Of a stretch of 64,000 bases of DNA, positions 11,499-52,151 are shown piece by piece; position 1 is the first letter of the stretch, and every line of letters begins with the position of its first letter. Source of the DNA: Herbiconiux sp. A18JL235. GTDB taxonomy: Bacteria; Actinomycetota; Actinomycetes; Actinomycetales; Microbacteriaceae. The notes under the pieces were generated by a model. The model did no database searches, was not told the DNA's origin, and worked only from the letters and a program-made list of their open reading frames with translations. The position numbers and the translations under genes are program-made. The stretch covers positions 1,178,001 to 1,242,000 of the forward strand of contig NZ_CP162511.1 in NCBI RefSeq assembly GCF_040939305.1. Direction: 5' to 3'.

Positions 11499-12289
11499 GT
11501 CGGTCGCCTGGTCGTTCCGAGGTGCGGGCGAGTGTCTGCATGGCCACCTACAACGGCTCGGCGTACGTGGCCGAGCAGATCGAGTCGATCGTCGCGCAGC
11601 TCGGCCCCGACGACGAGCTCGTCGTGGTCGACGACTGCTCCACCGACGACACCGCCTCCGTCGTGGTGGCGACGGCGGAGCGCCTCGGTGAGTCGCGCAT
11701 CCTGCTCACCAAGACCGACTCGAACGTGGGGTACGTGCGGGCGTTCGAGGCCGCCATCAGGCGGTCCCGCGGCACGTACGTCTTCCTCTCCGACCAGGAC
11801 GACGTCTGGACGGCCGGGCGGCACGAGGCCATGATCGCCGGGCTCTCGCGCTCGCTCGTCGTCGCCGCGAACCACTCCATCCTCGGCCGCAACGGTGCAC
11901 GACTCTGGTATCCGCCGCTGCGGGCCGCGCAGTCGCAGCGGCGGTTCGCGAACCTGTTCGCCCTGCTCGTCGGCTACCGGCCCTACTTCGGCTGCGCGAT
12001 GGGCTTCCGGCGCGAGGCGATCGACGGGGGCATCCTGCCCATCCCGCCGTACGTCAGCGAGTCGCACGACGTCTGGATCGCCATCACGGGCAACGTGCGG
12101 GGGAGCATCCGTCATCTCGACGAGGTCGTCGTCGAGCGCCGTCTGCACGGCTCGAACCAGACCCCCCTCGGCATCCGGGGGCTCCCCACCATCCTCCGCG
12201 CCCGCGTCATGTTCCTCCGCCTCATCGCCGAGGCCACCCGCCGCGCCACCGCAGCCCGTCGCGCTCGGCGCGCGGCGTCGCTACGATGA
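11495..12289 (+). CDS. Family-2 glycosyltransferase
   Basis: This is a 264-residue product; start GTG 11495 with AAGGGGAG about 6 nt upstream and a 4-bp overlap with the flippase-like gene. Motifs: VCMATYNGSAYVAEQI, LVVVDDCSTDD, and FLSDQDDVW (DQDD metal-binding motif), the usual signature of bacterial GT2 enzymes acting on O-antigen or capsule repeat units. Later, CAMGFRREA and SHDVWIA mark the acceptor side. The last codons overlap the promoter of the erm leader (TACGAT at 12282-12287). Confidence 0.87.
   Translation: MSRSPGRSEVRASVCMATYNGSAYVAEQIESIVAQLGPDDELVVVDDCSTDDTASVVVATAERLGESRILLTKTDSNVGYVRAFEAAIRRSRGTYVFLSDQDDVWTAGRHEAMIAGLSRSLVVAANHSILGRNGARLWYPPLRAAQSQRRFANLFALLVGYRPYFGCAMGFRREAIDGGILPIPPYVSESHDVWIAITGNVRGSIRHLDEVVVERRLHGSNQTPLGIRGLPTILRARVMFLRLIAEATRRATAARRARRAASLR
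12282..12287 (+). promoter_or_regulatory. -10 box TACGAT for the erm leader transcript
   Basis: TACGAT fits TANNNT and ends 6 nt before the GTG start of the leader peptide, the arrangement of a leaderless actinobacterial transcript. It overlaps the final codons of the upstream glycosyltransferase. No clear -35 hexamer is visible. Confidence 0.5.
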
Positions 12290-12293
12290 GGGC

Positions 12294-12359
12294 GTGGGAA
12301 CTCTCTACAGCGCAGCCGTGACGGGGCGCTTCTTCACCTTCCGCGACCGCCGCGCCTGA
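12294..12359 (+). CDS. Putative erm leader peptide with R-D-R stall motif
   Basis: GTG 12294 to TGA 12357-12359 encodes 21 residues beginning MGTLYSAAV and ending FTFRDRRA. The Arg-Asp-Arg triplet (residues 17-19) fits the +X+ (Arg-x-Arg/Lys) sequence at which macrolide-bound ribosomes are known to stall, as in the RLR leaders of other erm genes. The start is 6 nt behind a TACGAT box. Downstream come alternative hairpins and then the erm gene. What is seen is the peptide, promoter spacing and hairpins; induction by macrolides is inferred. Confidence 0.6.
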   Translation: MGTLYSAAVTGRFFTFRDRRA

Positions 12360-12484
12360 CGGCGCGCCGCCGCTCGCTCGCCTCAGCGCGCCGTCCTCCG
12401 AGACGTCATCTGCACCTCGGACGGGCGCTTCCTCGTGCCACGACATCGCCCCGCGGGGTGCTCCACCCTCTTCCCAGGAGCACC
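12360..12484 (+). promoter_or_regulatory. Putative translational attenuator of erm
   Basis: Three stems can be drawn. Stem 1 is 12360-12367 with 12386-12393 (8 bp, cggcgcgc/gcgcgccg), right after the leader stop. Stem 2 is 12391-12402 with 12416-12424 (a 9-bp match with a 3-nt bulge), mutually exclusive with stem 1. Stem 3 is 12457-12464 with 12477-12484 (8 bp perfect, ggtgctcc/ggagcacc), which buries the AGGAG ribosome-binding site (12476-12480) of erm. This is the layout of Erm translational attenuators. A sequence resembling leader codons (gacgggcgcttc) recurs at about 12420. Confidence 0.5.
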
Positions 12485-12488
12485 GCTC

Positions 12489-13247
12489 ATGCCTCGATCC
12501 CTCCATGGTGGCCGCCACGAACTCGGCCAGAACTTCCTCACCCACACGCCGTCGATCGACCTCATCCTCGCGCTGGTGGATGCGACCCGCGGGCCCATCC
12601 TCGAACTCGGCGCCGGTGACGGCGCGCTCACCCGCCCTCTCGCCACCAGACGGCGGCCCCTCACCGCCATCGACATCGACGAACACCGCGTCCGCCGCCT
12701 CCGGAGGGCGCTGCCGCACGCCGACGTGCTGCAGGCCGACGCGCTGCACCATCCGCTCCGCGCCCCCACGGTCGTCGGCAACATCCCGTTCCACCTCACC
12801 ACGCCCATCCTCCGTCGCCTGCTGGCGGAGCCAGGCTGGGAGCGCGCGATCCTCCTGACCCAGTGGGAGGTCGCCCGCAAGCGTGCGGGGGTGGGCGGCG
12901 GCACGATGATGACGGCGCAGCACGCGCCCTGGTTCGAGTTCGCGCTGCACGGGCGGGTGCCCCGATGGGGATTCAGGCCGGCCCCGGGCGTCGACGGCGG
13001 CATCCTGTCGATCACCCGCCGCGAGCATCCGCTTCTCCCCGGGGCCGAGCGACGCGCTTACGAGGGCTTCGTGCGCGCGGTGTTCTCGGGGCGGGGTGCG
13101 ACTCTCGAACGCATCGTCGCCGGTGCCGGGAAGGCCCCTCCGTCGGTCGCGCGCGACGCGGTGGCTCGGGCCGACGCCCGGGGCGCTCTTGCCCGCGACC
13201 TCGACGCAGAGCAGTGGGCCGCTCTGTGGCGCACCCTCCGGGGGTGA
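12489..13247 (+). CDS. erm: Erm-type 23S rRNA (adenine-N6) methyltransferase
   Basis: This 252-residue enzyme is predicted to transfer methyl groups from S-adenosylmethionine to A2058 of 23S rRNA, giving macrolide-lincosamide-streptogramin B resistance (family knowledge). Motifs in order: HELGQNFLT near the N-terminus (motif X), LELGAGDGALT (motif I, from about 38), AIDIDEHRV (motif II), DVLQADAL (motif III) and NIPFHLTTPILRRLL (motif IV, Asn98-Ile-Pro-Phe). Related KsgA enzymes carry NLPY at that place, so NIPF supports Erm rather than KsgA. ATG 12489 has AGGAG 8 nt upstream, inside a hairpin. It has its own attenuator-like leader, and codon use is like its neighbours, so it may be a resident gene rather than a recent import. 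Confidence 0.88.
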   Translation: MPRSLHGGRHELGQNFLTHTPSIDLILALVDATRGPILELGAGDGALTRPLATRRRPLTAIDIDEHRVRRLRRALPHADVLQADALHHPLRAPTVVGNIPFHLTTPILRRLLAEPGWERAILLTQWEVARKRAGVGGGTMMTAQHAPWFEFALHGRVPRWGFRPAPGVDGGILSITRREHPLLPGAERRAYEGFVRAVFSGRGATLERIVAGAGKAPPSVARDAVARADARGALARDLDAEQWAALWRTLRG

Positions 13248-13313
13248 GACCTGTGCGCCAACGCTCAGTTTCGATCGGTAGCTTGCCAAGCTGCGGGCCG
13301 AGACAGGAGATGC

Positions 13314-14528
13314 ATGCAGGCGCAGGAACGACACGGGCGAAAGCACACCCCCTCGGCGGCGGCGCTCGTGCTGCGCACGCTCGGCGTGGCGGTGGCCGTG
13401 GTGGTCGTGTCGACGCTCCTGGTGGTGGGGTACGCGGTATCGAGCATCTCGTCGACGTTCCAGGAGGCGGCAGTCGACATCGGCGGCGACGCACCGCCGC
13501 CCGCGCCGCCGTTCCTCGGCGCCATCGAGGGCGGGTTCAACCTGCTCATCGTCGGCAGCGACAACGACGAGAACCAGGGCGACGAGTACGGCGAGCGCGA
13601 TGCGGTGCTGAACGACGTGAACATCCTCATCCACGTCGCAGCAGATCACCGCAACGCCGTGGTCGTGAGCCTGCCCCGCGACCTCGTCATCCCCCAGCCC
13701 GCCTGCGACGCCTCGGATGCGGTCGACGCCCAGCCCCTCAACGACGCCTGGGAGAGGGGCGGCGAGAACGGCCTGGGGTGCGTGGTGGCGACCGTGCGAT
13801 CGCTCACCGGCCTCGACATCCCGTACGCCATGGAGACCTCGTTCAACGGTGTGATCGAGATGAGCAACGCCGTCGGCGGCGTCGACGTCTGCGTCACCGA
13901 CGTCATGCAAGACGACTTCACCGGCCTGTACCTCACGCCCGGACATCACCTCCTTGCCGGCGCCGACGCCCTCGCCTTCCTGCGCAACCGCCACGGCGTG
14001 GGAGACGGCAGCGACCTGGCGCGCATCGGCTCGCAGCAGCAGTACCTGTCGTCGCTCTTGCGCACGATCAAGAGCTCGAGCACCCTCTCCGACCCCACGA
14101 AGGTCTACGGGCTCGCGCAAGCCGTGGCGCAGAACATCACGCCGTCGACGAGCATCAGCGGCACCGACACCCTCGTCTCGCTCGCCCTCGCGATGAAGGA
14201 CATCGACCTGTCGAAGGTCGTCTTCGTCTCCTACCCCGTCACCGCCTACGTCGACGACCCGAACAAGGTGCAGCCCGTCGACGACCTCGCCGCACAGCTC
14301 GTCGAGCGCATCACCACCGACCAGCCGTTCACGCTAGACGCGGGCGCCACCACCACCGGTTCGACCGTCGAGGGCGAGGCCGGCGCCGACCCCGCCGACC
14401 CCGCCACGCCGGCCGCACCTCCCGCGAGCGAGGCGCCGACCGACTCGCCCGAGACCCCCGACGTCATCGAGGGCCTCCAGGGCCAGACCGCTGCCGAGCA
14501 GACCTGCGCCAGCCCGTTCAGCGAGTAG
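13314..14528 (+). CDS. LytR-CpsA-Psr (LCP) family glycopolymer transferase
   Basis: This 404-residue protein has a cytoplasmic N-terminus, one membrane anchor (about 20-45) and an extracellular LCP domain (about 70-330). Visible family residues: NLLIVGSD at the start of the domain, LNDVNILIHV, SLPRDLVI (the PRD motif) and LAFLRNRHGVGDGSDLARI, whose Arg residues bind the pyrophosphate of the polyprenyl-linked donor. The tail after about 335 is Ala/Pro/Thr-rich and ends near a lone Cys. LCP enzymes attach secondary polymers to peptidoglycan, which fits the surrounding glycan genes. ATG 13314 follows AGGAGA. A TAGCTT box lies at 13279-13284. Confidence 0.9.
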   Translation: MQAQERHGRKHTPSAAALVLRTLGVAVAVVVVSTLLVVGYAVSSISSTFQEAAVDIGGDAPPPAPPFLGAIEGGFNLLIVGSDNDENQGDEYGERDAVLNDVNILIHVAADHRNAVVVSLPRDLVIPQPACDASDAVDAQPLNDAWERGGENGLGCVVATVRSLTGLDIPYAMETSFNGVIEMSNAVGGVDVCVTDVMQDDFTGLYLTPGHHLLAGADALAFLRNRHGVGDGSDLARIGSQQQYLSSLLRTIKSSSTLSDPTKVYGLAQAVAQNITPSTSISGTDTLVSLALAMKDIDLSKVVFVSYPVTAYVDDPNKVQPVDDLAAQLVERITTDQPFTLDAGATTTGSTVEGEAGADPADPATPAAPPASEAPTDSPETPDVIEGLQGQTAAEQTCASPFSE

Positions 14529-52075: not shown

Positions 52076-52151
52076 GCACCTCTAGCTCAATCGGCAGAGC
52101 AACTGACTCTTAATCAGTGGGTTCAGGGTTCAAGTCCCTGGGGGTGCACCA
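52076..52151 (+). tRNA. tRNA-Lys (CTT)
   Basis: Full cloverleaf: acceptor GCACCTC/GGGGTGC, D-arm with AGCTCAATCGGCAGAGC, anticodon loop CTCTTAA with anticodon CTT at 52109-52111, T-arm CAGGG-TTCAAGT-CCCTG, and an encoded CCA (52149-52151). TAATGT at 52046-52051 is a possible -10. Confidence 0.97.

Follow-up and report, generated by a model that had tools for sequence, protein, structure and literature searches.

The stretch of the Herbiconiux sp. A18JL235 chromosome considered here, called the window (64,000 nucleotides; contig NZ_CP162511.1, positions 1,178,001 to 1,242,000 of the forward strand), carries on its plus strand an erm gene of the 23S rRNA A2058 methyltransferase family (12489..13247; 252 amino acids), preceded by a short leader frame and a set of alternative RNA helices. 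The protein scores 224.1 bits with NF000499, the NCBIfam Erm profile, for which the curated cut-off is 212; the named models that score best on it, Erm(46) and then Erm(55), fall far under their own cut-offs. The Shine-Dalgarno sequence of the gene, GGAG (12477..12480), lies 8 nt ahead of the ATG at 12489. Upstream, a frame of 21 codons with a GTG start encodes the leader peptide VGTLYSAAVTGRFFTFRDRRA (12294..12359), which ends in RDRRA; codons 17-19 (12342..12350), two codons ahead of the stop, specify Arg-Asp-Arg, a motif of the +X+ arrest type. In light of the comparisons set out below, this arrangement very probably attenuates the translation of erm in a macrolide-inducible way, by means of an R-x-R leader peptide that seems to be leaderless.

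A -10-like box, TACGAT (12282..12287, plus strand), stands 12 nt before the peptide GTG and places the putative start of transcription; it has no recognisable -35 partner, and a search for a two-hexamer sigma-70 promoter at the window leader gave no match. Because of this spacing, a transcript that begins at or beside the GTG is plausible, and the leader peptide is probably leaderless. The 21-residue R-D-R peptide and its leaderless start had been proposed in an initial annotation of this DNA; the frame is confirmed and the start is plausible, and the 12282 given there as the beginning of the element is the first base of the box. An Rfam scan of 12200-12560 at E 1 found no curated model that matches the leader.

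Between the end of the peptide and erm, segments with pairing potential follow in the order q (end of the peptide), a (beyond the stop), a', b, b', d, c and c' (Shine-Dalgarno), all on the plus strand. A predicted q:a hairpin encloses the stop codon (12351-12356 with 12361-12366), and a:a', a strong GC hairpin, starts at that codon (12358-12367 with 12386-12395). Two further hairpins belong to the putative off state: b:b' (12397-12402 with 12416-12421) and c:c', in which GGUGCUCC (12457-12464) pairs with GGAGCACC (12477-12484), the arm that holds the erm GGAG, in 8 bp without a mismatch. The alternative helix b':c, assigned to the on state, joins 12412-12419 with 12454-12461 and is extended by 12423-12427 with 12447-12451. 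The initial annotation had described mutually exclusive hairpins, of which the last, perfect one covers the Shine-Dalgarno; that hairpin is as described, the alternative helices are present and supported by covariation, and the important one among them, b':c, goes unnamed there.

Conservation of the peptide, the R-x-R, the Shine-Dalgarno stem and the covariation in relatives strengthens the observation. Among the loci fetched, 111 had a tblastn Erm match at 1e-20, and the 110 with at least 280 nt upstream were used for the peptide count (L086, cut off by a contig end, has 85 nt). A peptide that fits the criteria (8-30 residues, R-x-R at most 5 residues from the C terminus, TANNNT ahead of the start by 11-14 nt) is found at 102 of the 110 Erm loci, or in 90 of 98 when identical upstream sequences are merged. 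Twenty rounds of dinucleotide shuffling averaged 0.5 such peptides per 110 loci and never gave more than 2, and the reverse strand gave none. The box precedes the peptide start by 13 nt at 68 of the 102 loci, by 12 nt at 28 and by 14 nt at 6. The motif itself is RDR in 75 peptides, RLR in 9, RER in 5, RPR in 4, RIR in 3 and another variant in 6. Among the 90 distinct leaders, 88 have exactly two residues between the motif and the stop, which fixes the position that a stalled ribosome would take relative to the RNA segments. ermA has a second leader peptide; inspection of the leaders by eye for a second conserved peptide revealed none, and the ATG of some leaders is ACG in the window.

The stem over the erm Shine-Dalgarno was followed in 74 distinct leaders with an Erm at least 58% identical, helices of at least 5 pairs being accepted; these leaders measure 169-286 nt from peptide start to erm. 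The whole GGAG is paired in such a helix in 71 of the 74; the helix touches the last G only in L107 and L094, L116 has no helix by the rule used, and for L072, L073, L115 and L118 the rule chose a more distant partner. Helices were then assessed by permutation, in which matched partners are compared with partners dealt between leaders, on 71 leaders and then on 41 less redundant ones; L029 and L030 were dropped. The signal is strongest for b':c (z -10.1 and -8.3), followed by b:b' (-6.4 and -5.0), c:c' (-3.6 and -3.1; 474 of 476 cells paired) and the nearly invariant a:a' (-3.3 and -2.8; 593 of 611 cells paired). The combinations q:c, b:c and a:b' show no signal in this comparison or the opposite one. 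When helix arms are slid out of register, pairing falls from 0.97-1.00 to 0.20-0.65.

A covariation scan of kept columns, for which L107 and L094 were also left out (69 leaders, 68 distinct), considered column pairs at least 75% pairable and involved no significance test. It placed 69-84 (b:b') first, 81-129 (b':c) second and 84-126 (b':c) fourth; the third-ranked pair, 90-129, falls outside the proposed model. Over the 68 rows, column 84 of b' pairs with column 69 of b as AU in 46, GC in 20 and otherwise in 2, an AU/GC double change in 20 rows that reflects few events on the tree, and with column 126 of c as UA in 30, CG in 22, UG in 12 and otherwise in 4. Column 129 of c pairs with column 81 of b' as AU in 56, GC in 11 and GU in 1, and with column 152 of c' as UG in 42, UA in 14, CG in 11 and otherwise in 1. 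Two pairs of b':c thus carry double changes, in 11 and 22 rows, and bases 84 and 129 each keep pairing with two partners, as mutually exclusive helices require. On the tree of Erm proteins, column 81 changes seven times, column 129 six times and the two jointly seven times, so that about six of the changes are paired.

A second alignment, of 34 selected leaders (long or odd leaders and unoriented loci omitted), points the same way: 94.3% of cells are paired in the off structure and 97.5% in the on structure, and double-changed cells number 13 against 5.7 in shuffles for the former and 17 against 3.5 for the latter, with 0 of 500 shuffles as high in either case. In 21 of the 34 rows, the bases aligned with the outermost c:c' pair of the window do not pair. 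Comparative evidence therefore suggests that b:b' and c:c' on the one hand and b':c on the other exclude each other, although only one pair, 81-129, has many independent events. The initial annotation had named related genomes as the place to look for conservation of peptide, motif and stem and for compensatory changes, and each of these was found there.

These features can be joined in a relay. Transcription would start at the GTG of the leaderless leader, and without drug the leader would be read through, b:b' and c:c', the helices with comparative support, would form, and the erm Shine-Dalgarno would be hidden. A ribosome with bound macrolide or ketolide would, on the pattern of the ErmD leader (ErmDL), arrest at Arg17-Asp18-Arg19; Asp18 would occupy the P site, and the leading edge of the ribosome would lie close to the stop, so as to cover q. 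The q:a hairpin would then be blocked and a:a' favoured; a:a' would take a' from d and leave b'd to pair with c, a passage from ribosome to released b' that can only be presumed. The pairing of b' with c, for which there is covariation, would in turn free the Shine-Dalgarno, and Erm would be made. In summary form, the off set would consist of q:a, a'b:b'd and c:c', and the on set of a:a', b'd:c and a free Shine-Dalgarno.

The fold energy of the window leader is weakly unusual (z -1.70; 9 of 200 shuffles equally stable), a weak single-sequence signal that makes the evidence for the attenuator comparative. In the window the off set sums to -48.2 kcal/mol (q:a -11.4, a'b:b'd -21.6, c:c' -15.2), near balance with the -48.4 kcal/mol of the on set (a:a' -22.8, b'd:c -25.6). 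Folding of whole leaders favours the off state, with mean probabilities of 0.70 for pairing of the Shine-Dalgarno with c (SD:c) and 0.17 for c:b'd; a mask for the stalled ribosome moves these to 0.64 and 0.19, and a ribosome front at stop+8 to 0.52 and 0.28. For RNAs truncated ahead of c', 38 of 71 leaders have c:b'd above 0.5 when unmasked, 35 under the stall mask (34-38 for masks placed at the stall site or close to it), 47 when q alone is masked and 51 when the mask covers all positions up to the stop; in the window RNA so cut it rises from 0 to 0.35 only under the last of these masks.

Several observations weigh against the attenuator as drawn. Outside 81-129, paired changes are few: on the Erm tree, columns 69 and 84 change two and three times (jointly three), columns 84 and 126 change three and twelve times (jointly 13), of which at most two coincide and many give G-U wobbles, and columns 129 and 152 change six and eight times (jointly 12). 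The relay helices show no clear covariation; q:a, paired in 382 of 408 cells, has no double change and no permutation signal (z 0.4 and -0.7), and a':d gives no clear signal (-1.7 and -0.8). In the 34-row alignment, double-changed pairs number 1 against 1.3 in shuffles for the off structure and 2 against 1.1 for the on structure, a value that 99 of 500 shuffles reach. Judged by local energies, 61 of 69 leaders prefer the on set to the off set, b:b' plus c:c' being more stable than b'd:c in only 11 of the 69, so that the off state would need kinetics or long-range pairing. Ribosome-masked folding never frees the Shine-Dalgarno (unpaired above 0.5 in 0 of 71 leaders at any position tried), and in the window the stall-site mask changes nothing, SD:c and c:b'd shifting only if b is masked. 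As for the sensor, the middle residue of the motif is Asp here and Leu in the published ErmDL, in which the R-x-R is reported to be critical for telithromycin and far less so for erythromycin (PMC8298421). Equilibrium folding does not reproduce the trigger, and a thermodynamic proof of the switch was set aside; the relay stays a proposal, and is probably kinetic.

The leader might instead act on transcription, its hairpins serving as intrinsic or Rho-dependent terminators and ribosome stalling letting the polymerase into erm. The GC hairpin a:a' that starts at the stop codon is of a kind with this, and a leader of 169-286 nt is, by a familiar idea, long enough to load Rho. Transcription attenuation has moreover been described for mef/mel macrolide resistance (PMC4335068). 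Against this, 12200-13400 contains no stem with a T tract such as an intrinsic terminator has, and b':c, the best-covarying helix, and c:c' concern the Shine-Dalgarno directly, which a pure terminator would not need; transcriptional attenuation is accordingly unlikely. Much the same pair of features, the b'-c covariation and the conserved Shine-Dalgarno hairpin, is left unexplained if the stalled ribosome mainly shields the transcript and the helices are secondary, and stabilisation of the mRNA is judged an improbable basis for induction even though expression of another Erm is reported to track mRNA stability independently of stalling (PMC5118997).

That the leader senses some signal other than macrolides, such as a different ribosome drug or the supply of arginine, which the C-terminal Arg codons of RDRR could report through arginyl-tRNA, is very improbable. 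The gene downstream encodes a methylase of the macrolide target, some leaders carry S, T or N right after an R-x-R that itself persists, and R-x-R is a known motif of ketolide and macrolide arrest (PMC8298421). The translational attenuator remains the preferred reading, and by analogy with ErmDL we infer drug-dependent arrest at R-D-R and macrolide induction of erm.

The resemblance to ErmDL is close in outline. That leader too is a short +X+ peptide before an Erm gene, and its drug-dependent arrest, reported for both erythromycin and telithromycin when the Leu of Arg-Leu-Arg occupies the P site, activates erm (PMC8298421). It differs in having R-L-R where the window has R-D-R two codons before the stop; the exact R-L-R is thus absent from the window, and it occurs in 9 of the 102 peptides. 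ErmDL has 14 residues, against 21 here, and leaders of the R-L-R class carry a Shine-Dalgarno of their own, whereas the window peptide is apparently leaderless: if transcription starts where a -10 box at a distance of 12-14 nt would place it, none fits ahead of the start codon. The ErmC leader likewise has its own Shine-Dalgarno, and another arrest motif. As described, its translational attenuator is similar in leader arrest, alternative RNA structure and release of the Shine-Dalgarno (PMC6685928). The claim of the initial annotation that the parts of drug-induced translational attenuation are all present is sustained for the sequence features of the ErmC/ErmD type: Erm, leader frame, arrest-type motif, hidden Shine-Dalgarno and alternative helix are in place.

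Actinobacterial systems come nearer in promoter layout. The erm(X) gene of Corynebacterium plasmids (L143) is preceded by the leader MLISGTAFLRLRSNR, whose start follows a -10 box by 13 nt, and attenuation by the leader peptide has been proposed for it (PMC3350403); this peptide is shorter and of R-L-R type, and a model built for the class (R1) finds no match in L143 at E 0.1. Upstream of erm(36), erm(46) and erm(55) (L140-L142), whose products are 51-53% identical to the window Erm, there are also short peptides, each start of which follows a -10 box by 12-13 nt; they differ in having 14 residues and the ends TRFRRF, TEFRRF and IRIRRF, that of erm(46) lacking R-x-R, and R1 scores their leaders at 16-19 bits, which is noise level (a presumed chance match elsewhere reaches 28.9). 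The erm(56) gene of Trueperella, as described, has inverted repeats that its authors propose to act in translational attenuation; it differs in that the part of the account available describes no leader peptide (PMC10470526).

A 2024 survey of erm upstream regions reports upstream frames in many erm genes, highly divergent and without a universal pattern (PMC11264731). Unlike that picture, the pattern is strongly conserved inside the actinobacterial branch sampled here. Attenuation itself is known and has already been proposed for erm(X) and erm(56); the apparently leaderless R-D-R class looks like a new form of it. In the portions of the literature available, no announcement of such a class in Microbacteriaceae was found, and older work may exist.

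More tentatively, and at odds somewhat below even, actinomycetes may share a distinct class of Erm switch, composed of a leaderless sensor peptide, translated from the very first base of the transcript and carrying R-x-R precisely two codons ahead of its stop, and a three-step RNA relay, that answers natural ketolides as well as cladinose macrolides, acts in soil as a sensor of producer neighbours and has also moved onto plasmids. The R-x-R predicts the response to natural ketolides besides cladinose macrolides. A conserved class in which covariation singles out the probable switching bases offers a ready experimental system, and it poses a question absent from the classical systems, namely by what means a ribosome with bound macrolide initiates on a leaderless message and then stalls within it. 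An inducible Erm can make a strain seem susceptible in a drug-free test.

The distribution of the module is patchy. A close Erm occurs in 2 of 16 genomes of the genus, G000 and one other (74% identity); the other matches in the genus, about 27-35% identical, presumably represent different methyltransferases, for example the housekeeping 16S enzyme. In the family, a 25-base DNA motif around the stop (one mismatch allowed) was found in 11 of 398 genomes, each time beside erm, and an Erm match at E 1e-30 in 37 of the 398, loci being retrieved for 30 of the 37. Since the motif is in 11 genomes and Erm in 37, most Erm-bearing family genomes have another form of leader or none. Under strict filters R1 made four matches in 396 genomes of the phylum: the window itself, the Erm loci of G119 and G176, and a weak one of 28.9 bits. 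The last, which has no Erm nearby, was considered as a possible non-erm gene under the same leader and was taken as chance. The leader peptide of G176 is identical to that of Microbacterium suaedae, which suggests that the family is Microbacteriaceae. In a scan of named genomes from which the best 80 of 294 candidate loci were retained, 45 of these 80 are titled Microbacterium, and the others include Kocuria, Brevibacterium, Leucobacter, Mumia, Isoptericola and Nocardioides.

Mobility of the module is suggested both by the window locus and by relatives. The erm module lies between a glycosyltransferase-like gene, upstream of the peptide, and a gene of the LCP family of glycopolymer transferases, downstream of erm. 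In G012, the most similar relative by LCP gene (90%; glycosyltransferase 94.7% over 244 residues) and the one relative in which both flanks were seen, 132 bp separate the matched DNA of these two genes, against 1099 bp in the window, and the locus has no Erm match. The stretch without a DNA match in this relative, 12262..13360, comprises promoter, leader and erm. The module was thus probably inserted at the window locus, and insertion is the likelier because 14 of the 16 genus genomes are without a close Erm. Plasmid relatives in Dietzia (Erm 63.7% identical) and Kocuria (71.3% over 86% of the protein) both have RDRR leaders, which match R1 at 112 and 132 bits, respectively. Seven loci, L055-L061, from Homoserinimonas, Kocuria, Brevibacterium, Propioniciclava and others, share an identical leader peptide and have Erms 67% identical to the query, which suggests that a relative of the module has recently spread by horizontal transfer. 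The initial annotation had set the element in a chromosomal region rather than on a mobile element; the locus is chromosomal, and the second half of that statement fits poorly with a probable insertion and with relatives on plasmids.

At the upstream junction, the -10 box region of the module (12282-12289) overlaps the last codons and the stop of the glycosyltransferase gene. The match of the glycosyltransferase to its G012 relative stops 20 residues short of the stop codon of the window gene.

Natural variants add detail. At L059 and L068 the peptide is missing beside erm since an insertion sequence (IS) element interrupts the leader, and the part with the peptide lies beyond the IS. Judged against the uninterrupted leaders of L055 and L022, the IS of L059 (1552-2999; transposase with rve and HTH_21 domains) sits between b and b', and that of L068 (813-2273; a different transposase) between c and c'. 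Both insertions part partners of the proposed off state, which in two cases is suggestive. L113 and L117 have an RDR peptide without a TANNNT box, and L032, by eye, a short peptide without R-x-R. By eye, too, L114 (159-330) has an in-frame stop within the peptide, yet the stretch matches R1 at 86.7 bits, and in L123 (2844-2999, Auraticoccus) the peptide has shrunk to ATG then TGA, the -10 box and downstream inverted repeats being still visible and the R1 match reaching just 21.4 bits.

In L104 (1248-3756, Desertihabitans) an ABC-F gene ends directly ahead of the Erm gene. Upstream of that ABC-F gene, a leaderless-looking frame of six residues, MGALVL, replaces the R-x-R peptide. Elsewhere in the window, the sole Rfam match at gathering threshold is a tRNA gene at 52076-52148.

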